From IMG/VR virus record IMGVR_UViG_3300042294_004113, positions 1 to 20,507 of that record: a stretch of 20,507 nt of DNA, one strand, 5' to 3'. Within the stretch, counting starts at the first letter, position 1; each line of letters opens with the position of its first letter. The notes beneath the pieces were generated by a model. It was not told the origin of the DNA and ran no database searches. It saw only the letters and a list, made by a program, of their open reading frames with translations. Shown here in pieces: positions 2,494-20,390 of the stretch. The position numbers were made by a program, and so were the translations under genes. Origin of the DNA: a virus.

Positions 2494-3654
2494 TTATAAT
2501 AAATATGTTAAATCCTGCTCATAAGTTGTAAGTGCTTTTATTTTTATTTTGAATATATCTAATTCAAATTCACCTACTTCACCTGAGTCTGCTATAATTT
2601 TAGGTAATTGCATTATAATGTCAAATGACTGCTGTGTAAATTTGGCAGCATCAAATTCAACTATTATGTCATTTGTTGGCACATCATGTTTAATTAATTT
2701 TAGGCGTTTTTTTAAATCAAATATTGTGTTTGGTTGTTCTACATCTATATATGCTGCTTCATTTATGCCTAATTCATCACCTGTATATATATTATTGCAC
2801 CATGGTTCCAATGTAGTTAATGCTTGAAAATTACAATTGTGTACTACAAACCCAATATCATATTTATGTTTTATTATTGGGTGTTGATATTCATCATTTT
2901 CTATCCAACTGCCCCATTTACGAATATAATTTCGGGCTGCTTTAGCTGTTGCTTTTTTATAAAATTCATCATCTTTACCTACCTGCTCAGTCCATCTATG
3001 TCCACGACATGTTAAATGATATACTAATGCATCTCTTGATTGGATAAGTTTGTAGCCGGCCATTATCCATCTTTGGAATATATCTGAATCTTCATATGGG
3101 AATGGAGCAAATAATGGGTCGTGTCCTCCTATGGCTTGGAAATCTTTTTTATATATTACCCAAGGAGCAAACATGCCCTTTGTTGTTTGGTTTTTAAATT
3201 CAGTTTGTTTTTCAACACAAAATGATTCAAAAGCGCTTACGTTTAATGAATCAAAATCTTGACCAAAATCTTTTATTATTTTTTCTTTACCTTCTGGATG
3301 CAACGGTGGTTCTATTCTGGTTGCACATACTACTTTGCCCGGTTGGAGATGTTTAAGTAAATTTTCAACATAGTTGGGCCCAATAATCATATCTGCGTGC
3401 AGTATTCCCACTATATCTTCGTTTACTTGCGCTATCCCTTTATCATACAGCACTGTGTGGCCTACTCTTTTATCTGCGAAGTATGGCGCGTATAAGTTGT
3501 CTTTAGGCAATGATAATAACCACTCACGCGTACCATCTGTTGAGGCATCATCAAGAAACATTATTTTAGCATACGGGGCATGTTTTATGATAGATGTATA
3601 CACATTTTTTAGATGTCTTAAATTATTGTAACTCGGTATTATAAAAGCTATCAT
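2494..3654 (-). CDS. Family 2 glycosyltransferase with C-terminal extension
   Basis: A 386-aa protein. The N-terminal GT-A fold is clear: FIIPSYNN (4-11) is the first strand, LDDASTDGT (34-42) the nucleotide-binding acidic motif, and HADM (86-89) takes the place of the metal-binding DxD. A helix with FPYEDSDIFQRW (about 185-196) supplies the typical ED motif. GT2 enzymes move a sugar from a nucleotide-sugar to an acceptor in the cytoplasm. Beyond about residue 265 there is an extra domain of about 120 residues (YDIGFVVHNCN, LEPWCNNIYTGDE) that I cannot assign. ATG at 3654 overlaps the stop of the FkbM-type gene by 4 bases (ATGA), showing translational coupling. Acceptor and donor are unknown. 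Confidence 0.85.
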   Translation of the reverse strand: MIAFIIPSYNNLRHLKNVYTSIIKHAPYAKIMFLDDASTDGTREWLLSLPKDNLYAPYFADKRVGHTVLYDKGIAQVNEDIVGILHADMIIGPNYVENLLKHLQPGKVVCATRIEPPLHPEGKEKIIKDFGQDFDSLNVSAFESFCVEKQTEFKNQTTKGMFAPWVIYKKDFQAIGGHDPLFAPFPYEDSDIFQRWIMAGYKLIQSRDALVYHLTCRGHRWTEQVGKDDEFYKKATAKAARNYIRKWGSWIENDEYQHPIIKHKYDIGFVVHNCNFQALTTLEPWCNNIYTGDELGINEAAYIDVEQPNTIFDLKKRLKLIKHDVPTNDIIVEFDAAKFTQQSFDIIMQLPKIIADSGEVGEFELDIFKIKIKALTTYEQDLTYLL

Positions 3655-4274
3655 ATGTTTTGATTTATAAACAATACATCTTTTTGGTATTCATCTAATG
3701 TAATTTCATCTTTTACAATAAATGAATATTTACCTAAATAATCAACCACATCATTATAATATGATTGTCCTTCCCATACTTGTTTTATTTCTAATTCTAT
3801 TTGTATTGCTTTAGTTTTATATAATTTATCTCCAAATCCCTGTAATACCTGTAACCCAAATCCTTCTACATCTATTTTTATTAAATCAAAACCATCTACT
3901 TTCATGTGATTCATTATATCCTCCATTCTCCATCCATCCACTTCTACTTCTTTACTTATAAATGGGCTTATTATTCTGTTGAGTAAAGATGATATACCTA
4001 TGTTTTCTTCCTGGCCAAACACACCAGCGTTAAACTTTACCACACCTTGTTTATCAGACGCGGCAGCATGTAATGTTACGTATTGGGGATATGTTTGTAT
4101 TATAGTTTTAAAACATTCTGGATGAGCCTCTATTATAAAACAATTTTCTGGTTTTAAATTCCAGTATTGAGCTATGTAATGGGTATCATGTCCATCTCTA
4201 GACCCTATCTCAACAAAATTATTTATTTGTTGCCCTTCCAACAGTTCAGTTAATTGTTTTATATCATGCCTCAT
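3651..4274 (-). CDS. FkbM-family SAM-dependent methyltransferase
   Basis: A 207-aa protein with the SAM-binding motif VEIGSRDG (21-28), an acidic end of strand 2 (FIIEAHPE, about 46-53) and the family hallmark IKIDVEG (132-138). FkbM-type enzymes O-methylate sugars or other small hydroxyls, which fits a neighbourhood of glycosyltransferases: it probably methylates a sugar of the glycan made by this locus. The length is near a minimal FkbM domain. ATG at 4274 overlaps the upstream glycosyltransferase by 11 bases and its own stop overlaps the next gene by 4. The substrate cannot be read from sequence. Confidence 0.85.
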   Translation of the reverse strand: MRHDIKQLTELLEGQQINNFVEIGSRDGHDTHYIAQYWNLKPENCFIIEAHPECFKTIIQTYPQYVTLHAAASDKQGVVKFNAGVFGQEENIGISSLLNRIISPFISKEVEVDGWRMEDIMNHMKVDGFDLIKIDVEGFGLQVLQGFGDKLYKTKAIQIELEIKQVWEGQSYYNDVVDYLGKYSFIVKDEITLDEYQKDVLFINQNI

Positions 4275-4986
4275 ATGTTTCTCCGTATTTTCTTAATTCG
4301 TGGTATAAACTGTTGTATGAAGATGAAACAAAATAATTATTCATGTTATTTTCTGCTTTAAAACAAAACTCATCTATACTTATATTTATTTTATTTTGTT
4401 TAAACGTCTGTGAGTTAAGATGGCATATAGTGTTATTATCTGATATTATTGTTTTTAGGTTATGTTTTTCAGTTATACATCCGGTATAAAAGTCAATTCC
4501 CCATCCATATATTAATTCTTGTGGATATTGTTTAATTATTTCAAGTATATCTCTTCTAAGTAATGGGCTTTGAAAATCAACCCATTTTACTTGTCTTAAT
4601 CCTTTACCCCAATTCCACATTTGTTTCCAATAGCATTGTTCTATAGAAGAATTTATTATAGTGGGACTATAGACAGATGCATCCGCTTTTTTGGCTTCAT
4701 CCAATGATGTTGTGAGAAATGATACACCATGAAATATAAGATCATTATTTAAAAAATACATATAATCATGATTTGTACTTAAAAAATACTCAACAGCAGC
4801 ATTTATACCTCCACCAAAAAATATATTTTCTTCTAATTTATGGGTAGTTGTTTTAGCCAATGGTTCTGATGAACCGTTGTCTATAACCATCAGTTCATAT
4901 TTATGGAATAATGGGTCACGCTTTAATTGGCTGACCAAATTATCAGTTAAATCAGGCAGGTTATGATTTAAAGTAGCTATTAGCAT
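4264..4986 (-). CDS. Family 2 glycosyltransferase
   Basis: A 240-aa GT-A protein. Motifs in order: TLNHNLPDL at the N-terminus in place of the usual P-x-Y/N-N, VIDNGSSE (34-41), a glycine-rich FFGGGINAA (56-64) typical of rhamnosyl/GT2 enzymes, and FLNNDLIF (78-85) replacing DxD. GT2 members of this type (WbbL-like) add a sugar to a growing oligosaccharide. ATG at 4986 comes one base after the stop of the methyltransferase gene (4988). It ends inside the FkbM-type gene. It most likely acts in sequence with the other transferases here. Confidence 0.8.
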   Translation of the reverse strand: MLIATLNHNLPDLTDNLVSQLKRDPLFHKYELMVIDNGSSEPLAKTTTHKLEENIFFGGGINAAVEYFLSTNHDYMYFLNNDLIFHGVSFLTTSLDEAKKADASVYSPTIINSSIEQCYWKQMWNWGKGLRQVKWVDFQSPLLRRDILEIIKQYPQELIYGWGIDFYTGCITEKHNLKTIISDNNTICHLNSQTFKQNKINISIDEFCFKAENNMNNYFVSSSYNSLYHELRKYGETYEA

Positions 4987-4987
4987 C

Positions 4988-5617
4988 TTAAATATATTTT
5001 ATTCCAATCCCCATTATACTGTTAGTTGTTAACTCTACATCTAAAGTAATGTTTGAATCTTGTATAGCTTTATATACACCACAATCATTAGTTGGTTCTA
5101 TTGGTCGTATATCATGAAATAAAAGCATATCTGTAGCCAGTGGGGCAAATTTATTTATATCATTTATTACTTCATGGTACTTATGTCCTGCATCTATAAA
5201 CACTATGTTAAATGAATCTCTTTCATTTTTAACTTTATCTAAAACATTTTCACTTAATGTATCTTCATTTATTAATCTAGTTGAAATATTATTTTGTTCA
5301 AGATAATTTATTGTTCTTATGAGTAATAAATTATTTGGATCATGCCCCATTAATGTTACGGTAACGTAATGTCCTTTTATATTATTTAATTTGCAGAACT
5401 CACAAAATGCTATAGCCCATAATCCTTTATAAGCACCCAACTCTAAAAATGATATTTCTGTTTTAGGATTTACTTTATAAAAATCACTTATTAACCCCCA
5501 GGCATTAAAAAATTCAAATTGTATTTGTGAACCATCAAAACTTATTTCTTTTCCATTAGTATATTCTACAGGTGAAATAATGTTTGAATAAGTGTTTATT
5601 ATATTTTGGTTTAACAT
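4988..5617 (-). CDS. Class I SAM-dependent methyltransferase (Methyltransf_24-like)
   Basis: A 209-aa protein with motif I FLELGAYKG (57-65), a Rossmann-like series of strands and the segment FIDAGHKYHEV (140-150) followed by LLFHDI (165-170). The IDAGHxYxxV and FHDI elements are typical of the Methyltransf_24 / CmcI-like group found in polysaccharide and antibiotic clusters. In this context O-methylation of a sugar is likely. ATG at 5617 is 3 bases after the stop of the DUF6492-type gene. It is not an obvious DNA methylase: no DPPY/NPPY motif is present. Confidence 0.75.
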   Translation of the reverse strand: MLNQNIINTYSNIISPVEYTNGKEISFDGSQIQFEFFNAWGLISDFYKVNPKTEISFLELGAYKGLWAIAFCEFCKLNNIKGHYVTVTLMGHDPNNLLLIRTINYLEQNNISTRLINEDTLSENVLDKVKNERDSFNIVFIDAGHKYHEVINDINKFAPLATDMLLFHDIRPIEPTNDCGVYKAIQDSNITLDVELTTNSIMGIGIKYI

Positions 5618-5620
5618 ATT

Positions 5621-6421
5621 TTAATATTTTAAAGGAGCATTATAATTTGATTGCATCACGATACCCATATAGTTTTGCGCTATCATTTCTTCAGTTATAC
5701 CTTGTTGTTTATACTCAGTATACTGTTGGGGATAATGAAATACTTTAAATAATGGTTCTACTGGATATAGATTGATGGATTTAAATTGAAGTAAAGATTC
5801 ACCGTACCAACTAAATTCGCTGGATGAGTATTGTATAGCATGTTCAAAGTTTACTCCATTTGGTTTTAAGTATTTTTCTTCTAAATCATTCCATACTTTA
5901 GATGACCAAATAACAGGTGATGGCCCAAAATCATAATATTTACCTTTCCTCTCAAAAACTTCATTCATTATTTTATCTCTATCTTTTATAAACGATTCTT
6001 TAGGATCAAAACCTAATATTTGTTTTTTATTCACTGTCCAACTAAATAATTCTTTTTGTTCATGCATCACAGTATAAGGTGTATCATCATCTACCAATAA
6101 ATCACTTTTACTAAAAGGTCTAATAAAATATGAATCTGAGTCTAAGCAAAGATAATTTTTGCTTAAATTTAATTTCCAAAAATTAGCTTTTATAATTTGT
6201 TGTTGTACCCAACCTGTTTTAGATGATGAATATATTTTTTCATCTTCTATTAAATTAAGATTTTTTATTTGGGAAAACAAAGGGATATCTTTTTCAGGAA
6301 CACTGACATAGAAAGGAATATTGTCTGTATTATATTTGTTAATAGATTCTACTAAGTTAACGACTCGGTCAAAATCTTTATAGTACGATTTACAAAATAA
6401 AACTATATTTTCCATTACCAT
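5621..6421 (-). CDS. DUF6492-type glycosyltransferase-like protein
   Basis: A 266-aa protein. The N-terminus (IVLFCKSYYKDFDRV) and the central YLCLDSDSYFIRPF (around residue 95), a DxD with flanking strands, match what I know of DUF6492, a GT-A-like family from capsule and lipopolysaccharide clusters. The following EQKELFSW and GPSPVIWSS segments fit the acceptor side of such enzymes. Two starts are possible: ATG at 6421, or ATG at 6415 that forms a TAATG junction with the upstream stop; they differ by two residues. Genes on both sides are glycosyltransferases, so a role in the same glycan is likely. Confidence 0.75.
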   Translation of the reverse strand: MVMENIVLFCKSYYKDFDRVVNLVESINKYNTDNIPFYVSVPEKDIPLFSQIKNLNLIEDEKIYSSSKTGWVQQQIIKANFWKLNLSKNYLCLDSDSYFIRPFSKSDLLVDDDTPYTVMHEQKELFSWTVNKKQILGFDPKESFIKDRDKIMNEVFERKGKYYDFGPSPVIWSSKVWNDLEEKYLKPNGVNFEHAIQYSSSEFSWYGESLLQFKSINLYPVEPLFKVFHYPQQYTEYKQQGITEEMIAQNYMGIVMQSNYNAPLKY

Positions 6422-7251
6422 TTTTTTATCATACCCAACTCATCAAATACAGGTAATCTACCCCATTTATTTATCCACTTTTTAAAATTACTTGCTTCTG
6501 ACTCGCGCTGACGTTGGGATGACTGTCCGTTGTTTTCTTCTAATCTATGTGACCCGCGCGCTCCAAAATGCCATACTACAGATTTATTAGTAACAACAAA
6601 TTCATATCCTTCATATATCATACGTAAAAATAAATCCATATCCTCCCAGCTGGCAGGAGCAAACAATGGGTCGTTACCTCCTATTTTATCCCAATCTGTT
6701 TTTTTTATTAATCCACTTACACCTTCTGCTTTTCGGAATTTAAAAGCTATTTGCTGGCTTAATTCTTCAGCTGCATTTTCAAATTCAAGTATATCAAAAT
6801 CACTGTATGTAGATCCCATTTCTTCTATATCTACTATATAAGTGCCGGGGCGTGATGCTTCATTAAAGATGTTAGGTTGTATTCTATATGGGAACACCCA
6901 CACTGGTTGAGTCCATAGTTTATGTTCTTCTAAACATGCTATATCCCAATTTTTGGATACATAAAAATCAGAATGAAGAAACATTATATATTCTGTTTTT
7001 ACTTTATCTGCGCAAAAATTCATTCCACCTCCAATACCAACAGGTATTTCATTTTTTTCAATATAGTACTCTAAATTATATTCATCCTTAACTTCAGCCA
7101 ACCATTCATCAGTTCCATCATCACAGTTCTCGGCATGTACTATAAATGGAGCATCCCTAAAATAACTATTTTTCCTTACTGAAAAGACCGCCAGTTTAAG
7201 ATAATTTAGATTATTATATGTACTTAAACAAAAAGTTATTGGTGAGTTCAT
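6415..7251 (-). CDS. Family 2 glycosyltransferase, paralogue of the one at 2494-3654
   Basis: A 278-aa GT-A protein with FCLSTYNN (7-14), ENCDDGTDEW (41-50), a glycine-rich VGIGGGMNF (71-79) and FLHSDFYV (91-98) in the DxD position. The second half (LFAPASWEDMDLFLRM, then WHFGARGSHR and FKKWINKWG) parallels the gene at 2494-3654 (LFAPFPYEDSDIFQRW, CRGHRW, YIRKWGSW), so the two are likely diverged copies. This copy ends at about where the other begins its extra C-terminal domain. ATG at 7251 overlaps the upstream gene by 4 bases. It is predicted to be cytoplasmic and to use a nucleotide-sugar; specificity is unknown. Confidence 0.85.
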   Translation of the reverse strand: MNSPITFCLSTYNNLNYLKLAVFSVRKNSYFRDAPFIVHAENCDDGTDEWLAEVKDEYNLEYYIEKNEIPVGIGGGMNFCADKVKTEYIMFLHSDFYVSKNWDIACLEEHKLWTQPVWVFPYRIQPNIFNEASRPGTYIVDIEEMGSTYSDFDILEFENAAEELSQQIAFKFRKAEGVSGLIKKTDWDKIGGNDPLFAPASWEDMDLFLRMIYEGYEFVVTNKSVVWHFGARGSHRLEENNGQSSQRQRESEASNFKKWINKWGRLPVFDELGMIKKW

Positions 7252-7874
7252 ATAGTACTATAAAGATTATTTTGTTTTTCTTGTCTATCTATTGTTTTAG
7301 GATGAATTAAACTACATTCATCAAGTGGCGGTAAAGTAGTAAATTGTTTATAACCAGTTAAACGTTCATGAACTTTATTTATAAAATATATTTCTGGTAT
7401 ATTTTTAAAAATGCGGGATTGTGGGTCGGGGTAGTTTACTCTATTATTATTGTAACTCCATCCCCATTTTTTGATATGCTCAGAAGTAATACCTTCAACT
7501 GTATTAATTCGAGGTATATAAAACATATCAATATCAGGATTAGTTTCTAATATTGATGGTAAATTTTCCAATAACCAAACAGTTGGATATTCATCCGCAT
7601 CAATTTGGAATATTACATCCTTGGTACAATGTTTAATTAAATTATTTTTGAATGAAGCAAAATCTTTATTTAATGGAAACCATATTCTATGATAATCATA
7701 TTTAGTAGCTACATTATATTTTATTGCTACGTTTTCAACTTCTTTTGTTGCTACAGTATCTAATTGTACTACAATTTCATCTTCAGGACGAATATATTGA
7801 TTTAATAAATCTAATAAACGTTCTAATTCAACATGTTCATTAACTGCTGTGATTGCGTAACTAATTGTTGGCAT
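7248..7874 (-). CDS. Family 2 glycosyltransferase (WaaE/KdtX-like pattern)
   Basis: I place the start at ATG 7874 (MPTISYAITAVNEH). It follows the upstream TAA directly as TAAAGTTATG, and the first GT-A strand begins there. A TTG at 7934 would add 20 residues and overlap the upstream gene by 56 bases. The 208-aa product has IVVQLD (34-39), FASFKNNLIKHC (72-83), QIDADEYP (90-97) as the DxD site, and near the C-terminus RIFKN...KVHERLTGY, a layout seen in LPS-core WaaE/KdtX-type enzymes. It belongs to the same glycan locus. Confidence 0.8.
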   Translation of the reverse strand: MPTISYAITAVNEHVELERLLDLLNQYIRPEDEIVVQLDTVATKEVENVAIKYNVATKYDYHRIWFPLNKDFASFKNNLIKHCTKDVIFQIDADEYPTVWLLENLPSILETNPDIDMFYIPRINTVEGITSEHIKKWGWSYNNNRVNYPDPQSRIFKNIPEIYFINKVHERLTGYKQFTTLPPLDECSLIHPKTIDRQEKQNNLYSTI

Positions 7875-7878
7875 AACT

Positions 7879-8313
7879 TTAATTTTTGAATAAACCAATA
7901 TATTCACAAGCATCCATAAATCCATTTTGACCAAATTCCTTTTTAGTTGTTGGATCAGTTTTATATGGAGCTCCTTTTAGTTTTTGTTTTTCTTCATCTG
8001 TTGTTTCTCTTGAAATAACTCCAACCCATTGCCAATTATCTTTATTAGTACCATCTACATACACTATACCTAATTCCTGCACATTCATTACATTTGGGTA
8101 CCATATTTGGTTTTTGTTATCTATGTACTTAATATCTTTATATAATTCGGGTAATACTTCTTCAGTTTCAGTAACTAATTTACTTCCCACAAGCATTACT
8201 TCATTAGATGTGAAACCACATCCCATGCAATTCCAAACCAATAAACCGTCTACTTTATGCTCATAACAAGCATCAGAAGAACATTTACGACATATTACTA
8301 ATCTATCTTTCAT
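7879..8313 (-). CDS. Zinc-ribbon protein of unknown function inside the glycan locus
   Basis: A 144-aa protein. C8xxC11 and C29xxC32 (ICRKC, WNCMGCGF) form a classic four-cysteine zinc ribbon within the first 35 residues. The rest has a beta-rich central part (IWYPNVMNVQELGIVYVDG) and a tryptophan motif (NWQWVGVI, about 94-101), ending in an acidic-aromatic tail (GFMDACEYIGLFKN). It starts at ATG 8313 as a TAATG overlap with the upstream transferase. Nothing indicates a glycosyltransferase fold, so it is probably a regulatory or virion-associated protein carried with the locus. I do not know its function. Confidence 0.7.
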   Translation of the reverse strand: MKDRLVICRKCSSDACYEHKVDGLLVWNCMGCGFTSNEVMLVGSKLVTETEEVLPELYKDIKYIDNKNQIWYPNVMNVQELGIVYVDGTNKDNWQWVGVISRETTDEEKQKLKGAPYKTDPTTKKEFGQNGFMDACEYIGLFKN

Positions 8314-9596
8314 TAATTAATTTTTTTCAGTTTAGGCAATGTTGGTAATTTAATATCTACTTGTTTAGGAGCTTCATCAAGATATTTATCTATCAGCTCA
8401 GTCATTTTATCAAACGAAAATTCAGTTTTTGATTTATATGACTGACGTTTAGCTCCATCCAAGTATTTATTATAATTTTCAAATACATCTTTTAATTTAT
8501 CTCCTACTTCAGCATCATTAGGTGTGAACCAAGATGATTCAGCAAGTATAATATTTTTAACAACAGCCGATGGATGTACTTGTTTTAAGTCTCCTGAGAT
8601 TGGTACTACAAAGTCAGGATCCAAGAAATCAGTATGTCCACTCCAATATGATACTATTATTGGTTTTTTAGATAATGAAAATTCAAGTAATGGGCGTCCG
8701 AATCCTTCTCCTTTGGTTAGGTTAACCATTGCTTTTACTTTGCCATGGTTATATAAATCATTCATGTCTTTATCTTCAATCTCACCATGCAGCAAATAAA
8801 TGTTTGGTAAATCGCCTTTAACTGTTTTTCTTATTTTATCTATTTTCTTTAATATTTCTTCTCTATCCATTATTGAGGCAGGTCCACTCATTGTTTTTAA
8901 AATAAGTGCAGGTTTGTTTTTTTTATTTTTAAACGTTTCGGAAAACGCTTTAACCAGATAACCTACATTTTTTCTATCTTCACCTAAATCACCTTGCAGA
9001 AAATGACCTACAAACAAGTAGCAAAAATCCTCTTTAATATTATCCAATGATGTAACTAATTCAGTTTCATCTAATTCATCATCATTTATATAAAAATACT
9101 TATCCAGATTTACACCTTCGAATAACACTTTAATAGGTTTTTCTACTTTTACTACTCCTAACTTATTACCTTTTTGGTCTTGTTTATCAAATGATGTTTT
9201 TTCAAACACGTCTTTGGAGTGTTTGGAAGATACCCAAACAACATCCATTCTGTTACATCCTTCAATCCAACTTGGATCACATATAGTAGTTTCTATACCT
9301 GCACTTACGCCCACATTGTATTTACCTACTGGCTGGAATTCAGAAGTGATAGTCACTTGCATCCATATATCTGGTTGGTATGGTAGTTGTGGTTGTTTCC
9401 ATATAAGATCAAGCAATTGTTTATCTTCTACATTATTAGGATTTAAAGCATTATATGGAGTATTTCCCCAACGTTGTGATATAATTTTTATATCATATTT
9501 ATCTAACTTGATTAATGCTTTGACTATATCTCTTGAACGAGCTCCATAACCAGATTGTGTTTCAATAGGGCAACTTATAAATAAAGTTTGTTTCAT
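8313..9596 (-). CDS. GT-B glycosyltransferase (family 4-like)
   Basis: A 427-aa protein with the C-terminal GT-B signature: FVGHFLQG (195-202) at the start of the second Rossmann domain, then GEGFGRPLLE (296-305) giving the E-x7-E motif at E297 and E305, followed by PIIVSYWSGHTDF. The N-terminal domain starts with FISCPIETQSGYGARSRD (6-23), a glycine-rich acceptor-side loop. Family 4 enzymes retain stereochemistry and transfer from a nucleotide-sugar. ATG at 9596 lies in TACGTTATG, 8 bases after the upstream stop. It is about the normal length for the family. It resembles the neighbouring gene at 9605-11053 in fold but not closely in sequence. Confidence 0.85.
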   Translation of the reverse strand: MKQTLFISCPIETQSGYGARSRDIVKALIKLDKYDIKIISQRWGNTPYNALNPNNVEDKQLLDLIWKQPQLPYQPDIWMQVTITSEFQPVGKYNVGVSAGIETTICDPSWIEGCNRMDVVWVSSKHSKDVFEKTSFDKQDQKGNKLGVVKVEKPIKVLFEGVNLDKYFYINDDELDETELVTSLDNIKEDFCYLFVGHFLQGDLGEDRKNVGYLVKAFSETFKNKKNKPALILKTMSGPASIMDREEILKKIDKIRKTVKGDLPNIYLLHGEIEDKDMNDLYNHGKVKAMVNLTKGEGFGRPLLEFSLSKKPIIVSYWSGHTDFLDPDFVVPISGDLKQVHPSAVVKNIILAESSWFTPNDAEVGDKLKDVFENYNKYLDGAKRQSYKSKTEFSFDKMTELIDKYLDEAPKQVDIKLPTLPKLKKIN

Positions 9597-9604
9597 AACG
9601 TATT

Positions 9605-11053
9605 TTAATAAACTAATTTATGACGTAATTGTTTTGGTTTAATAGGTTCAATTTTAATTAGTTCAAATGAATTTCTTGGTTTCCAAGTATTAAATGTTTC
9701 TTCAATCCCCTCAATTATATTTTCCGACATTAATCTAGATGACATCATTGATTCATCTGATGTTGCCCATTTGCGAGCAGCTTTACTTATCTTTTTATAT
9801 AAAAATGGGTTTTCTGTTTTATGAGTGTATGCTTTTTTTATTTGAGCAGCCGCATCTCTAAAATCAACTCTATCATCAAATATATATGGTGTAGGTATTG
9901 ATCCTTGAATACTCATACAACTTGGAAATACAGGATAAGCCCATTTACCATGTTTTTTGTAGGTACCAAAATGGTTAGAACAAAAATTCTCATCAAAATC
10001 AACCCACTCACCTTTTTCATTTTCAAAACGCATCTGGTCTTGCATACCACCTGTTACTGTGGCTATAATTGGCCTTTCAGCCATCATAGATTCAGTTAAT
10101 GATAAACCCCACCCCTCATTACTGCTCAGTAATATAGTAGCATCACATAGGTTATATAATATATTCATATCTTGTGTTGCTATTCTGTTTGGTGAGAAAA
10201 ATATATTACTTTGATCTTCACCAAATAATAAATCTATCACAGCAGGTAAATCAGTTCCGTTTTCATCTACTGGTTGGGTATGTAATAAAAAAGCACATTT
10301 ATCTGCTTTATCTTTAGGCAATGTATCTAAAAACACTTTAAATGCAGCTAAAGTATCACTTGTATTTTTTCTTCTTATATTACGTGAGTTATAAAATAAA
10401 ATGAAATCATATTCTTTATCTCCAAATATAGTTTTTTTAAATTCTTGCAAACGAGCATAATCTGCTTTATCTGAAGTGATATTGAAGAATAGGTTTTCAT
10501 TTATACCATGTGGGATATATTTTAATACTTTATTTTTTGCTTTATCACCTAACACAAGTTTATTTATGTTAAGTGTTTGTTTTGAAATAGCAAATAAAGC
10601 ATCACATGATTCATAATATGGTGAGTTATATAATGGGGCAGGATAATCATCCCATATGTTTAAGTATATTAAAGGTACTTTTTTTCTTATTTCATTTTCT
10701 ATCTGAAATAACCAAACCCAATAACGTGGATCGGTAAAGATCATTATAGCATCTGGTTTTTCAATTTCCATTATATGTCTTACCAACTCGGGAGAACCAT
10801 ACCCATCTGTTGGGTAAAGAAAAACACTCGAATCATTTATACCTAATTGATTATTTGTATCATGACTTAAATCAAATCTTTTTCCTTTATCTGGATGTTG
10901 TATAGCTCCTCCTATATTAACCCAATTAAAATGCATACTTGTTCCTATAACTAGTTCTCGGGCTATTGTAGAGATCCCTGAAGTCATCCGAATGTCATCG
11001 CAAAGAAGAAGTATTTTTTTACGTTGATCTTTAGCAATATAATTTTTTACCAT
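9605..11053 (-). CDS. GT-B glycosyltransferase, large
   Basis: A 482-aa protein. The N-terminus ILLLCDDIRMTSGISTIA (14-31) is the first strand and loop of a GT-B fold. SRNIRRKNTSDTLAAF (about 223-238) and SSNEGWGLSLTES (310-322) mark the second domain, with the E-x7-E pair at E313 and E321. The first domain contains an aromatic-rich run (DPRYWVWLF, 108-116) that may contact the acceptor. ATG at 11053 lies in CACGTTATG. It is the first gene of the 8.5-kb glycan run, downstream of the small ribbon-helix-helix gene by about 17 bases. Sugar and acceptor are not predictable here. Confidence 0.85.
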   Translation of the reverse strand: MVKNYIAKDQRKKILLLCDDIRMTSGISTIARELVIGTSMHFNWVNIGGAIQHPDKGKRFDLSHDTNNQLGINDSSVFLYPTDGYGSPELVRHIMEIEKPDAIMIFTDPRYWVWLFQIENEIRKKVPLIYLNIWDDYPAPLYNSPYYESCDALFAISKQTLNINKLVLGDKAKNKVLKYIPHGINENLFFNITSDKADYARLQEFKKTIFGDKEYDFILFYNSRNIRRKNTSDTLAAFKVFLDTLPKDKADKCAFLLHTQPVDENGTDLPAVIDLLFGEDQSNIFFSPNRIATQDMNILYNLCDATILLSSNEGWGLSLTESMMAERPIIATVTGGMQDQMRFENEKGEWVDFDENFCSNHFGTYKKHGKWAYPVFPSCMSIQGSIPTPYIFDDRVDFRDAAAQIKKAYTHKTENPFLYKKISKAARKWATSDESMMSSRLMSENIIEGIEETFNTWKPRNSFELIKIEPIKPKQLRHKLVY

Positions 11054-15311: not shown

Positions 15312-16442
15312 TTAATGGCTATCTTCTACATTATGTTTTTCACTATAAATTAAATAGTCGGGATTAATTACTTTGGCTATTTTTTCTCTTTTACCACTTA
15401 TATGTTTAATTACAATACCTTCTTCAGGTATTTTAGTTCCAGGAATGAAATTATTAAATGTAAATTTATTTTGAATTTCTTGTGACCAATTTCCTACATA
15501 TAATACTTCAACATAAGGTAATTCCAGAATAAGTTTAAATAATGTTTCTGAGTAATCAGTACTTAAATAGTCTCCTTGTTTTTTTATATCAAACCCTGCA
15601 AATTTAATTTCTTTTAATCCATAATCATATCCTTTTTGAATTCCTGCTCCATAAATTTCTCCATATAAAATAATACCTTCTCCAATATCATCTACATCTC
15701 TATTTATTTCTTTAACATAATTCCATAATTTATTTTTTATGTCATATTTTTTTTCAATTTCAAACCATACATTAGTATCATAAAATCCTTGAGATTCTGA
15801 TCCTTTTTCTACATTATGGGATCCAATTATAAATTCATAGTCAATCCATTTATCTGCTATTTTAAAGAATTTTTTTATTTTGTCCCATAAAGATAATTTA
15901 TTTTTTCTTACAATTCCATATCTAGATGAAGTGCCGTGAATTTTTCTTGTTATTTCAACAATATCTTCTTCAGTAAACATTCCGGGCACGTTCTTAATAT
16001 TAGCAAATTTATAATACACATGGAAATTAGGATTGTCTTGATAACGAATTTTCTTACCACTTGCTAATTGTATTTGTTTAACAGGAGGTTCATACTTAAA
16101 TATTTCCAACAATTCCATGCAATCAGATCCTTCATAATGATATTTATCTGGTATGAAACTAATAGGTATAATTAAACATTCACTATACACTCCTTTGAGT
16201 TTAATAGTTTTTACTCTACCTCCTTTACGCAAATAATTTGTTACACCTAAATTATCTGATAATTTTTCAGGTATAATAGCATCTGTAGTTGCCACTACTA
16301 TCAAATCACCTACATTATAGGTATTCTTTTTAACAATACAATTCCATCCATTAATAATAGCTAATTCAATATTATCTGCTCCTTCAATTGGTTTAATTTC
16401 ATTGATAGAAGCTACATAACAAACACTGTTTAAATTCTCCAT
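15312..16442 (-). CDS. RNA ligase, Rnl5 / DRB0094-like
   Basis: A 376-aa ATP-dependent ligase. The first about 120 residues form an OB-like domain (VCYVASINEIKPIEGADNIE, then VGDLIVV), the arrangement known from Deinococcus DRB0094-type Rnl5. The nucleotidyltransferase domain follows: motif I KIHG (167-170, Lys167 takes AMP), motif III-like LYGEIYG (259-265), FAGFDI (281-286), motif IV EGIVIK (341-346) and motif V around K357 (AKVIN). It would join 5'-phosphate to 3'-OH ends, preferably in nicked duplex RNA. ATG at 16442 is in AAAGGTTATG. The gene follows a P-loop kinase and a metallophosphoesterase that could prepare the ends. It is not T4 Rnl1 by layout. Confidence 0.85.
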   Translation of the reverse strand: MENLNSVCYVASINEIKPIEGADNIELAIINGWNCIVKKNTYNVGDLIVVATTDAIIPEKLSDNLGVTNYLRKGGRVKTIKLKGVYSECLIIPISFIPDKYHYEGSDCMELLEIFKYEPPVKQIQLASGKKIRYQDNPNFHVYYKFANIKNVPGMFTEEDIVEITRKIHGTSSRYGIVRKNKLSLWDKIKKFFKIADKWIDYEFIIGSHNVEKGSESQGFYDTNVWFEIEKKYDIKNKLWNYVKEINRDVDDIGEGIILYGEIYGAGIQKGYDYGLKEIKFAGFDIKKQGDYLSTDYSETLFKLILELPYVEVLYVGNWSQEIQNKFTFNNFIPGTKIPEEGIVIKHISGKREKIAKVINPDYLIYSEKHNVEDSH

Positions 16443-16481
16443 AACCTTTTATTTTTTTAAATATAATAAATTTTTATTGGT
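16443..16481. other. Short A+T-rich gap between the kinase and RNA ligase genes
   Basis: The 39 bases are nearly all A and T and include an imperfect inverted repeat AATAAA/TTTATT on the minus strand. The stem is too weak and short to call a terminator. It ends in the RNA ligase start context. It could tune expression between the two genes. Confidence 0.2.
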
Positions 16482-16904
16482 TTATCTAAGTTTTATATTC
16501 TTTTTTAATCTAGCCTCCATTTTATCTAAAATATCATCAGGCACTCCATGCCTGCTAATTCCGTTATGTCTGTTTTCTACAATTAATGAAACTACATAAT
16601 AACCATATTTGTTAGCTAAATCTAAATATGGTTGTAGTTCTTTTTCAGTAGTAGATGTATTTGATATTACAATTTCAGGATAATACTGTGGGTTGTCTTG
16701 GTTAACTTTCATAGCATTTTCTACTCTTTGTTGGCATTGTGCATGTGCTTCTCTTAATTTAGAAGCATCAAAGTTATAGTTACCTTCATCATCGTAAAAA
16801 TATTGGTCAGCTTCAAATATAACTCCACTTTCCCAAATAAAGTTAGCAAATGTTGACTTTCCGGCCCCCGGAATGCCCCGAAGGATGATTAATGTTTTAT
16901 TCAT
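16482..16904 (-). CDS. P-loop kinase, polynucleotide-kinase-like (AAA_33 type)
   Basis: A 140-aa protein with a clear Walker A, RGIPGAGKST (9-18), and the family signature EADQYF (31-36) followed by FDASKLREAHAQCQ (49-62). Later VISNTSTTEKEL (79-90) provides the usual substrate/metal loop, and RHNGISRHGVP (107-117) the basic lid. These small kinases phosphorylate nucleic-acid 5'-OH ends or nucleotides. Its position between a metallophosphoesterase and an RNA ligase favours a 5'-end kinase for RNA repair. ATG at 16904 overlaps the metallophosphoesterase stop as ATGA, so the two are translationally coupled. It lacks the HAD-type phosphatase domain of T4 Pnkp. Confidence 0.75.
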   Translation of the reverse strand: MNKTLIILRGIPGAGKSTFANFIWESGVIFEADQYFYDDEGNYNFDASKLREAHAQCQQRVENAMKVNQDNPQYYPEIVISNTSTTEKELQPYLDLANKYGYYVVSLIVENRHNGISRHGVPDDILDKMEARLKKNIKLR

Positions 16905-17584
16905 TGTTCATTTTTTAGTTCATTTTCATGATGATCAGAAGGTAATGTGTTTGCTTTAATAGGTCTATTTTGTAATAATTTAATAATTTCATTAAAATTA
17001 TATGGCATCAAATTATTTCCATCCATTCCTACATCTATGCTTCTACCAGCCATTAATTTTTGATGCGGAGGTAAATGAATATGCCCAAATAAATGCATTC
17101 GGCCTTTATTCATATTATGCCAACTACATAATGGATAATGATCAATTACAAACTCATAAACACCTCCTACAAGCGCGCCATGTGATACCTGTTTTACTTG
17201 CAGTACTTCATATTGAAATGTTTTTTTAAAAATACCTTGAATACCTCCTTTATTATTTTCAATATGATGATCATGATTACCATAAGCCAGGTATATGTTT
17301 TGGCATGTAATTCTATCCCTAAATTCTTTGATAGATTCAAACCCACCAAATGACCAATCACCCAAATGAATCAAAATATCATCTTGATCTACTACGCTAT
17401 TAATATTATTAACAATAGTATCATTCATGTGATCTAAGTTTTTAAAATCTCGGGTTTGTTCTATAGGTATTTTTCCATCTTTAGTTCTCCATTCAGTTAC
17501 CCCACGGCATATATTTTTATGATTGTAATGAGTATCTGATGTAAAAAATAATTTTTGCCCTATATTTAGTTCTATCTTTAACAT
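16901..17584 (-). CDS. Calcineurin-like metallophosphoesterase
   Basis: A 227-aa protein with all core metal ligands of the superfamily: D17-x-H19 (TSDTHYNH), GDW (75-77), GNHDHH (102-107), H149 (IDHYPL) and GHIH (167-170). It resembles the phosphoesterases often found in phages. Possible substrates are cyclic phosphates or 3'-phosphates of RNA, or nucleotides. It overlaps the kinase gene by ATGA and precedes the RNA ligase, so phosphate removal from damaged RNA ends is an attractive role; this is inference. ATG at 17584 is in the TAAGTTATG context. The last about 25 residues are polar and likely disordered. Confidence 0.85.
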   Translation of the reverse strand: MLKIELNIGQKLFFTSDTHYNHKNICRGVTEWRTKDGKIPIEQTRDFKNLDHMNDTIVNNINSVVDQDDILIHLGDWSFGGFESIKEFRDRITCQNIYLAYGNHDHHIENNKGGIQGIFKKTFQYEVLQVKQVSHGALVGGVYEFVIDHYPLCSWHNMNKGRMHLFGHIHLPPHQKLMAGRSIDVGMDGNNLMPYNFNEIIKLLQNRPIKANTLPSDHHENELKNEQ

Positions 17585-18182: not shown

Positions 18183-18944
18183 TTATATTTTGCCTAATTT
18201 TATAGCACCATCTTCAATTATTAGATATTGTTTTTGATTATATTCAAGTGTGTCTATAAAATAATATCTACCACCTGTTGATTTACCTTCAATATCAATT
18301 TGTTTTTGTGGTGTATGACCTACTATTTGAATAACCTTATCGCGTAATGTTTCTTTATTAACAGCCATTAATGATTTAGGTCTAATCCAAATAGGACTTT
18401 GAAACGTTTCATCACCATATCCGCTTCCTTGTTCATATCGTTCATTGGGTATGTTTTCATTATACCATTTATATGGGCGATGTGCTATTTTATAGGGTTG
18501 GTATAAAAATAGCTCATTAATTTTATCAACCATATTATCTACACCCCAATCATTTCCAAACACATCATTCATCCATTCATTGCTAATACCGGCATGTGAA
18601 CATACAAAACTATTAAATTGATAAGCTACTTGTAAATGTTCTTTATTTTCATTTATTATGCTTGTAATATGTGGAGCTAATGACATTTGATATCCTGAAC
18701 ATATATCATTTATGCCTGGGAAGTAATGATAGTCATGGTTGCCTAATAATAGTATAACTTCTTTATTGGTTGTTTTTTTATACTCAATAATTTCTTTAAA
18801 ATTATGGATTTGTTCTATACCCTTTATATCAAATGAATCAAAATAATCTCCCATGAAGATTACTCGATCAGCATCTTGTTCTAAATGTGTAATTAATTTC
18901 CAAAATGATCTTCCGTGTGTGTCGCCTAAGAGTATAGTTTTCAC
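18183..18944 (-). CDS. PPP-like metallophosphoesterase
   Basis: I place the start at GTG 18944, 10 bases after the stop of the upstream gene; it begins right before strand 1 (KTILLGDTHGR). A TTG at 19016 would add 24 residues that overlap the upstream gene by 62 bases. With this start the 253-aa protein shows GDTHG (7-11), GDYFDSFD (32-39), GNHD (68-71), CSHAGI and VGHTPQ, the motif order of PPP-type Ser/Thr phosphatases and related ApaH/PrpE-like enzymes. It would remove phosphate from proteins or dinucleotide polyphosphates, in the cytoplasm. The downstream gene follows as TAAGTTATG. Confidence 0.8.
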   Translation of the reverse strand: MKTILLGDTHGRSFWKLITHLEQDADRVIFMGDYFDSFDIKGIEQIHNFKEIIEYKKTTNKEVILLLGNHDYHYFPGINDICSGYQMSLAPHITSIINENKEHLQVAYQFNSFVCSHAGISNEWMNDVFGNDWGVDNMVDKINELFLYQPYKIAHRPYKWYNENIPNERYEQGSGYGDETFQSPIWIRPKSLMAVNKETLRDKVIQIVGHTPQKQIDIEGKSTGGRYYFIDTLEYNQKQYLIIEDGAIKLGKI

Positions 18945-18954
18945 TAGCTTAAAA

Positions 18955-19698
18955 TTATAAGCTGAAGATAGTAAATCCTTTATTTTTTTCCAAAAGTAAG
19001 GCTGTTTGGTTTTCAACCCAATCCCCCGAATTTAAGTAATGTTTATTATTTATCACTACATCCTCGGGTTGATGTATATGACCACATATTACTCCGTCAC
19101 ATCCATGTTTTTCAGCTATTTTTAAAGCTGTAGTTTCAAAATCATTGATGTAGTTAGTTGCTGCTTTAACGCCTTCTTTTATTTTTTTAGATATAGATTG
19201 ATAAGGTAATTTACGCCACGTTCTATATTTATTATACCAACGATTTAACCACAGTGCTAAATCATAGCCTACAGAACCTATTTTTGATAACCATTTATAT
19301 TTTGTAATAAATACATCTATTATATCACCATGAAATACGTAATAACTTTTTCTCTTAAATTGATCGTCTACTACCCATTCATAAGTGTTTAGTATATAGT
19401 CTTCTCTTATTTCTATATTACCAAAATGGGCACCAATAAATTCTTCTATAAATTCATCATGGTTACCTCTAATCCAAATTATTTTGGTTTTATTGGATAA
19501 TTTAAGTAGGTAAGATATTACTTTAGCGTGTGATTTTTTCCATTTAGAACCTCGGTTTAATGCCCATCCATCAATTATATCACCATTTAATATAAGTAAC
19601 TCAGTTGGATGTACTTCTAAAAACTCAATAAATTCTTTTGCTTTAGAATCTTTAGTACCTAAATGTAAATCAGATACAATGATGGCTTGATATTTCAT
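18955..19698 (-). CDS. LpxH-like metallophosphoesterase
   Basis: A 247-aa protein with SDLHLG (9-14), NGDIIDGW (38-45), RGNHDE (77-82), FHGDIID (after about residue 115) and CGHIHQPE near the C-terminus. This pattern is that of UDP-2,3-diacylglucosamine pyrophosphatases (LpxH/LpxH-like), which cleave a nucleotide-sugar lipid in lipid A synthesis. A phage copy might act on host lipid A precursors or on another nucleotide diphosphate. ATG at 19698 overlaps the upstream glycosyltransferase by 4 bases. The link to a glycosyltransferase on one side and a second phosphatase on the other is notable. Precise substrate is unknown. Confidence 0.8.
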   Translation of the reverse strand: MKYQAIIVSDLHLGTKDSKAKEFIEFLEVHPTELLILNGDIIDGWALNRGSKWKKSHAKVISYLLKLSNKTKIIWIRGNHDEFIEEFIGAHFGNIEIREDYILNTYEWVVDDQFKRKSYYVFHGDIIDVFITKYKWLSKIGSVGYDLALWLNRWYNKYRTWRKLPYQSISKKIKEGVKAATNYINDFETTALKIAEKHGCDGVICGHIHQPEDVVINNKHYLNSGDWVENQTALLLEKNKGFTIFSL

Positions 19699-20390
19699 TC
19701 CCAGTATTTATAATCTTGATGGAACCACTTATCGTTATTTCTATTTAACCATGAGATACATGCTAATTTTATCATGTACCATACACCCTTTTTCTTAAAT
19801 CGTCTACTTGAAGTATAAACTGTATCGTTAATGATTTTAAACTTTCCAGGTTTAATCTTCGAAGATAAATGATAATCCTCAGCAATTTTATCTTGTTCAT
19901 CAAATCCTCCTAATTGATTGAATGTTTCGGTTTTAAATAACATAAACCCACCTATTGCAAATGGTTTTGTTTTAGAACTAATCCATTGTATAACATTAAA
20001 TATAGCATATACCCAATTAAATTTACCATCTATAGTTTTAAAACGACATGTTACTAAATCGCAATCATTTGCAATAATTTCTCTAACAATATGTCTAATT
20101 GTATTTGGATTTTTTAAATATACATCCGCGTCTAAAAATAATATATATGGTGTGGTAACTAATTTAGCTCCTTTATTTCTTGCTACAGCTGGTAATCCGC
20201 CACTTATTATTTGTATAACTTGAGTTGAATGTATTTTATAATTATATAATAAATTGATTGTATCATCTGTAGATGAATCTGCTACTATTATTTTACAATC
20301 AACTTTTTGTCGTTTAATAAACTTCAGTACATCAATAACACCATGTCCTTCATTTTTACAAGGTATTACTATTGTAAGTTGTTTATTCAT
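19695..20390 (-). CDS. Family 2 glycosyltransferase next to thymidylate synthase
   Basis: A 231-aa GT-A protein: IVIPCKNEG (7-15), VADSSTDDT (36-44), AVARNKGAK (68-76), FLDADVYL (85-92) with the DxD at 87-89, and AEDYHLSSK (170-178). A hydrophobic stretch WVYAIFNVIQWI (126-137) may be membrane-peripheral. It stands apart from the 8.5-kb glycan locus, directly after thyA, so its acceptor could differ: a lipid or glycan, or modified DNA. ATG at 20390 follows the thyA stop by 13 bases that include the short palindrome acatataaatatgt. Confidence 0.85.
   Translation of the reverse strand: MNKQLTIVIPCKNEGHGVIDVLKFIKRQKVDCKIIVADSSTDDTINLLYNYKIHSTQVIQIISGGLPAVARNKGAKLVTTPYILFLDADVYLKNPNTIRHIVREIIANDCDLVTCRFKTIDGKFNWVYAIFNVIQWISSKTKPFAIGGFMLFKTETFNQLGGFDEQDKIAEDYHLSSKIKPGKFKIINDTVYTSSRRFKKKGVWYMIKLACISWLNRNNDKWFHQDYKYWE

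Follow-up and report, generated by a model that had tools for sequence, protein, structure and literature searches.

We analysed a 20,507-base IMG/VR virus fragment over its whole length (the window) and propose that three adjacent genes within it probably form an unfused, three-enzyme cassette for healing and sealing RNA ends, in which the ligase can be swapped and whose likely task is to repair tRNA damaged by host defences. The observed basis of this proposal is gene identity, conserved motifs, the fold of the kinase, linkage of the genes across phages, exchange of the ligase and proximity to tRNA arrays. From family knowledge and context we infer the RNA substrate, the tRNA specificity and the counter-defence role. 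The genes concerned are as follows.

16901..17584, minus strand: calcineurin-like metallophosphoesterase, 227 aa, of the COG4186/phrog_547 branch, which we propose heals 3' ends as a 2',3'-cyclic phosphodiesterase / 3'-phosphatase.
16482..16904, minus strand: P-loop kinase of 140 aa (AAA_33/phrog_2071), for which we propose polynucleotide kinase activity on RNA 5'-OH ends; it has no phosphatase domain.
15312..16442, minus strand: Rnl5-type ATP-dependent RNA ligase, 376 aa (PF21189 + PF09414, phrog_968), with N-terminal OB and nucleotidyltransferase domains.
18183..18944, minus strand: MPE2, a second phosphoesterase, PPP/ApaH/NinI-like (PF00149).
18955-19698: LpxH-like phosphoesterase, lying, as MPE2 does, just upstream of the trio.

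The three cassette ORFs are open, complete and contiguous on the minus strand throughout, with the same boundaries and the same co-directional layout that the sequence-only reading had described. They are transcribed in the order phosphoesterase, kinase, ligase. The ATGA overlap between phosphoesterase and kinase that had been reported is real (16904-16901); the kinase and ligase are 39 nt apart, and AAAAGG stands 2 nt 5' of the ligase ATG. A DNA-level search of the window against the phage collection gave no match, a search of the fragment for tRNA genes found none, and a promoter scan was uninformative (29 sites versus 36.5 expected). Glycosyltransferase-like and methyltransferase-like genes form a large block in the window (2494-11053 and 19695-20390), and the gene for the LpxH-like phosphoesterase overlaps a family 2 glycosyltransferase. 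Together, the block and the LpxH-like gene suggest a role in sugar or lipid modification.

The kinase scores over the Pfam cut-off for AAA_33 and falls in PHROGs family phrog_2071. As a single sequence it matched nothing in the PDB at E 0.1, and a profile was needed: built from 40 relatives, it placed T4 Pnkp at the top (E 7e-4), with the next matches including Pnkp1, PSTK and Clostridium thermocellum Pnkp (CthPnkp). The sequence-only reading had named a structural comparison with the Pnkp kinase as a check. In that comparison the AF2 model (pLDDT 89) had the CthPnkp kinase as its nearest structure (Z 15.5 over 132 residues, rmsd 2.7), and T4 Pnkp scored Z 14.9; PSTK (Z 13.0) and PFKFB (Z 12.0) rank lower, at about Z 11-13. 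Polynucleotide kinases thus come out best by both profile and fold, and the model has the kinase fold of bacterial Pnkp (TIGR04075). Identity as a nucleotide or sugar kinase was also considered and is unsupported, as Pnkp kinases rank above PSTK, PFKFB and others.

In T4 Pnkp, D35 is the general base and the R38/D85 pair serves the acceptor nucleotide. The window kinase has a P-loop that reads GIPGAGKS, and its D33 aligns with D35, which gives it the P-loop and general-base Asp that mark the 5'-kinase domain of the T4 Pnkp family. In the profile alignment the R38 and D85 positions are occupied by F36 and N82, so the acceptor site is likely to differ in construction from that of T4 Pnkp. Invariants specific to the kinase family include AH..C, SNT.T and ENRH. 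There is no HAD 3'-phosphatase at the C-terminus, and the 140 aa contain no further domain.

The ligase (PHROGs family phrog_968) matches two Pfam families, each over cut-off: the PHA02142 OB-fold (PF21189, residues 10-94) and RNA_ligase (PF09414, 162-359). A profile of 24 relatives matched the Naegleria gruberi RNA ligase (NgrRnl) end to end (its residues 5-335, E 5e-57), in an alignment of the ligase covering residues 5-365. The nucleotidyltransferase motifs are intact, with K167-x-x-G170, E262, E341 and K357 invariant in the 24 sequences. An N-terminal OB domain is followed by the nucleotidyltransferase domain, with no C-terminal Rnl1 or Rnl2 domain, and by this architecture the protein is classed as Rnl5-type; the label given to it from sequence alone was thus well chosen. 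The same domains and the Naegleria match set it apart from the Pnkp-specific ligase domain. It scores below the NCBIfam cut-off for the DRB0094 equivalog (TIGR02306; 96.2 bits versus 151.15). A further mark of Rnl5 ligases is nick sealing that requires RNA on the 3'-OH side. Joint action of a 5'-kinase and an RNA ligase is supported by the sequences.

The phosphoesterase matches phrog_547 'phosphoesterase' (E 2.8e-39) and lies just under the Pfam Metallophos cut-off (21.1 bits versus 21.5). Its metal-binding motifs are complete and invariant (D17-x-H19, GD76, GNHD 103-105, H149, G167-H-x-H170 and D184), and together with the profile match they place it in the COG4186/phrog_547 family. The C-terminal D217-H218-H219, also invariant, is specific to that branch. 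Its AF2 model has pLDDT 91, and by profile or fold the sole clear relative in the PDB is aq_1665 (1xm7). The Pnkp phosphatase belongs to the same superfamily; only aq_1665 was matched, in a library whose Pnkp phosphatase content is unestablished. The enzyme is of the COG4186/AQ_1665 branch and is not visibly tied to the Pnkp phosphatase. Because the kinase has no phosphatase domain, this phosphoesterase is the natural candidate for 3'-end healing.

MPE2 probably starts at the GTG at position 18944, a start shared by its homologues, rather than at 19016, where the mechanical ORF begins. Its profile found no match in the PDB. Among the phosphatase families to which it shows weak similarity is phrog_8238, a family of kinase-phosphatase-ligase fusions, of which it resembles the phosphatase segment; in huge phages, Lak included, homologues of MPE2 stand alone as ORFs about 220-270 aa long. 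Neither the weak matches nor the stand-alone homologues support descent of the cassette directly from a fused Pnkp. In one locus (L032, 4090-6152), kinase, MPE2 and Rnl5 ligase are contiguous, as though MPE2 had taken the place of the usual phosphoesterase. MPE2 is possibly an accessory end-healing enzyme, and we assign it to the RNA repair cassette only tentatively.

How might the three enzymes work together? The phosphoesterase would open and remove the 2',3'-cyclic phosphate, or the 3'-phosphate, that metal-independent ribonucleases leave behind, and the kinase would phosphorylate the 5'-OH end. The Rnl5-type ligase would then self-adenylylate on K167, activate the 5'-phosphate and seal it to the 3'-OH. 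The likely substrate would be host or phage tRNA that anticodon nucleases or RNase toxins of the host have cleaved.

Bacterial Pnkp carries a 5'-kinase, a metallophosphoesterase-type phosphatase and a ligase in one chain and repairs broken RNA, while T4 uses a separate Pnkp and Rnl1 to repair tRNA-Lys against the PrrC anticodon nuclease. The window trio resembles bacterial Pnkp (TIGR04075; Clostridium thermocellum), which goes with Hen1, in combining, with like logic, the same three predicted reactions: a kinase of the same fold, a predicted phosphatase of the metallophosphoesterase superfamily and a nucleotidyltransferase ligase. However, Pnkp is one polypeptide whereas the window has three separate ORFs; the window ligase is Rnl5-type (Rnl1 in relatives), the phosphoesterase comes from another branch, and no Hen1 was noticed in the window. 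With the T4 system the cassette shares a phage-borne kinase of the same family and, in its relatives, the use of Rnl1. Unlike T4 Pnkp, the window kinase lacks a HAD 3'-phosphatase, and the separate metallophosphoesterase is apparently the healing phosphatase; the R38/D85 pair is replaced, and the ligase is Rnl5. The Naegleria ligase and Deinococcus DRB0094/DraRnl share with the window ligase the OB and nucleotidyltransferase domains, the full-length match and the motifs. It differs from them in its shortfall against TIGR02306 and in being phage-encoded beside its own kinase and phosphoesterase. The term 'split Pnkp', taken to mean a bacterial Pnkp cut into pieces, is not supported, as the ligase is of a different family and the phosphoesterase has no recognisable link to the Pnkp phosphatase. 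To judge from the sequences, the cassette is an assembly of parallel parts rather than a demonstrable fission of Pnkp.

We gathered relatives with each of the three genes as bait and scored them by profiles, which gave 46 dereplicated viral kinase loci (kinase proteins <90% identical). The phosphoesterase lies within 10 kb of the kinase in 43 of these 46, often overlapping it or within 10 bp, and 38 of the 46 hold the complete trio of phosphoesterase, kinase and one ligase. Conserved linkage in related phages, on which the sequence-only reading also depended, is therefore found. Phosphoesterase-kinase-ligase on one strand is the dominant arrangement, and several loci have the ligase 4-8 kb off. 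A scan anchored on the kinase, and so free of bias towards either of its partner genes, found the phosphoesterase in 6/7 and a ligase in 6/7 distinct loci. Vibrio phage 1.170 is an exception: neither ligase nor phosphoesterase was detected around its kinase.

In cultured phages from genera far apart (rV5-like, Phapecoctavirus, Pakpunavirus, Thalassavirus and others), too, kinase, Rnl1 and phosphoesterase lie within about 4 kb, in differing and even divergent orders. The order is phosphoesterase-Rnl1-kinase in Schickermooser; in rV5_ev156, Rnl1 is divergent from kinase-phosphoesterase. Other cultured carriers of a kinase and Rnl1 with a nearby phosphoesterase are Thalassa, AhSzq-1, PAK_P2, Aci02-2, ACP17, Va1 and Mydo. 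Because the arrangement recurs in dozens of divergent loci, it is far beyond chance, and the locus counts and the rearranged yet linked orders rule out chance adjacency. Since order varies while the neighbourhood holds, a single inherited arrangement does not explain the linkage either.

Perhaps only the kinase and ligase repair RNA, and the phosphoesterase works separately, degrading small signalling nucleotides (cyclic oligonucleotides or 2',3'-cNMPs), its neighbourhood merely reflecting the clustering of counter-defence genes? We consider this possible but rather unlikely. The phages immuto and phi17:2 have the phosphoesterase without the kinase, and the profiles used detected neither ligase class in them; more phage records hold the phosphoesterase than the kinase (1087 versus 616). 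Since it occurs in immuto and phi17:2 without these partners, the phosphoesterase may have another or an additional substrate or role, and this is the main doubt about the three-enzyme reading. A survey of jumbo phages reports co-occurrence of RNA ligases with kinases and with phosphoesterases, a few of the latter calcineurin-like; for the calcineurin-like enzymes it proposes action on nucleotide signals, and for cREC-domain or 2H enzymes the opening of cyclic ends (PMC7824862). Genes for cREC_REC (PF20274) stand directly beside Rnl1 in Mydo (L139 4647-4991) and rV5_ev156 (L131 3618-3968); cREC_REC is a predicted cyclic-phosphate processing domain and could share the 3'-end healing step. Against a separate phosphoesterase, however, stand its presence near nearly every kinase counted above, a link that outlasts rearrangement across genera, and the absence of a phosphatase domain from the kinase itself. 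A Pakpunavirus paper has proposed tRNA repair for a kinase and two ligases, with a kinase that likewise lacks a 3'-phosphatase domain (PMC12846349). The phosphoesterase linked to the kinase in the relative PAK_P2 would fill that gap.

The ligase is not constant among the relatives. Of the 38 complete trio loci, 20 have Rnl5 and 18 have Rnl1 (Pfam RNA_lig_T4_1 confirmed on four ligases), and none has both. In whole records, which are mostly fragments, Rnl5 was found in 0/18 Rnl1-cassette records and Rnl1 in 0/19 Rnl5 records. The kinase tree, from an alignment of only 139 columns, implies at least 14 changes of ligase class, at least 6 of them forced by supported branches; the phosphoesterase tree implies at least 7, at least 4 of them forced, and phage recombination can scramble both trees. 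The window's own closest relative in kinase and phosphoesterase (L036/L046, 74% and 79% identical) has an Rnl1 1.2 kb downstream. Ligase class shifts many times on both trees, so one ligase has replaced another in that slot with the two partner genes kept in place. On this reading, kinase and phosphoesterase stay together as a stable pair, and phages add to it a ligase of either the Rnl5 or the Rnl1 class. The original interpretation is upheld in part, and this exchange had gone unmentioned in it. Nor does the jumbo-phage survey, in its accessible text, describe the pair as a unit, the Rnl5/Rnl1 alternation or placement in tRNA arrays (PMC7824862). In the literature searched, which excluded most subscription journals, we found no description of a phosphoesterase-kinase pair with alternating ligase classes.

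Six other loci (L086, L089, L092, L099, L106 and L116) have the phosphoesterase with a shorter Rnl5 relative that shares about 30% identity with the window ligase. Five of these loci also have an Rnl1 next to it, so strict exclusion of the two classes is not universal. GOLLD RNA lies about 3-5 kb beyond this arrangement, and the kinase is elsewhere in the record in three of the six and was not found in the other three. In L121 (8814-10838) the cassette's Rnl1 ligase is interrupted, its two pieces about 950 bases apart.

A connection with tRNA, suggested earlier from the window sequence, is backed by the genomic setting of the relatives. At least two tRNA genes lie within 6 kb of the kinase in 9/22 Rnl5 loci compared to 0/18 Rnl1 loci (Fisher p 0.002, related phages not being independent), and several Rnl5 cassettes are inside or adjoining arrays that comprise about 20 tRNA genes. 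The L003 cassette starts 18 bp past a long same-strand run of tRNA genes and is followed by a tRNA-Ser; L007, L008, L009, L012 and L042 have a similar layout with wider gaps. Three loci with this layout (L003, L012 and L042) hold GOLLD RNA, and two of them a tmRNA. Phage tmRNA genes sit within near-complete tRNA arrays in L003 (2274-2644), L019 (1838-2205) and L042 (4151-4536), and their tag peptides end in AVAA. GOLLD (Rfam RF02032) is at 3673-4085 in L003, 1661-2071 in L012 and 5501-5914 in L042, as well as in other loci. GOLLD forms an RNA nanocage, and its occurrence near tRNA islands is already known. Here it is present in 12/37 virus records with a repair cassette, several next to tRNA arrays; the accessible text of PMC12286853 does not mention it together with an RNA repair cassette.

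This setting would also suit a cassette that processes RNAs of the phage itself, maturing or splicing its tRNAs or other transcripts, such as those with self-cleaving ribozyme ends, instead of mending defence damage. Cassettes are embedded in tRNA arrays or adjoin them, in some cases together with tmRNA and GOLLD RNA, and an enrichment of DRB0094-type ligases is reported for gut phages that carry tRNA-linked theta ribozymes (PMC10879173). However, at Rfam gathering thresholds neither the window nor any of three tRNA-rich loci gave an intron or ribozyme family, and the window and most Rnl1 cassettes have no tRNA nearby; we judge maturation of the phage's own RNA improbable. DNA repair or late-gene DNA end processing by the kinase and phosphoesterase, with the ligase acting on RNA only incidentally, is very improbable: the kinases of T4 Pnkp and CthPnkp also take DNA (4mde and 1rc8 are DNA complexes) and in Schickermooser and Mydo a gene for a DNA ligase is no more than a few kb away, but every complete locus has an RNA-class ligase, Rnl5 or Rnl1, and several are set in tRNA arrays.

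We return to the reading of the trio as an RNA repair cassette. As a bolder and distinctly tentative extension, the phosphoesterase-kinase pair might be a dedicated phage core for RNA end healing that takes an exchangeable sealing module, the choice of Rnl5 or Rnl1 following the type of break made by local host RNases. Those types might speculatively be nicks in paired RNA versus breaks in loops. In tRNA-rich jumbo phages, the cassette could on this extension be part of a translation-protection island with tRNA arrays and perhaps tmRNA and GOLLD.

The cassette reading gives a consistent role to three small genes that in hundreds of phages often bear labels such as 'ATPase', 'phosphoesterase' or 'hypothetical protein'. 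It also supplies a candidate for the missing 3'-end healing enzyme in phages whose kinase has no phosphatase domain. Carrier phages that infect E. coli and Pseudomonas are in culture, so laboratory strains equipped with defined tRNA-cleaving defences could be used to test the proposed counter-defence role. The repeated exchange of Rnl5 and Rnl1 behind one healing pair makes a testable prediction about the RNA breaks that go with each ligase class, and ligase class would thereby indicate which host RNases each phage lineage meets.
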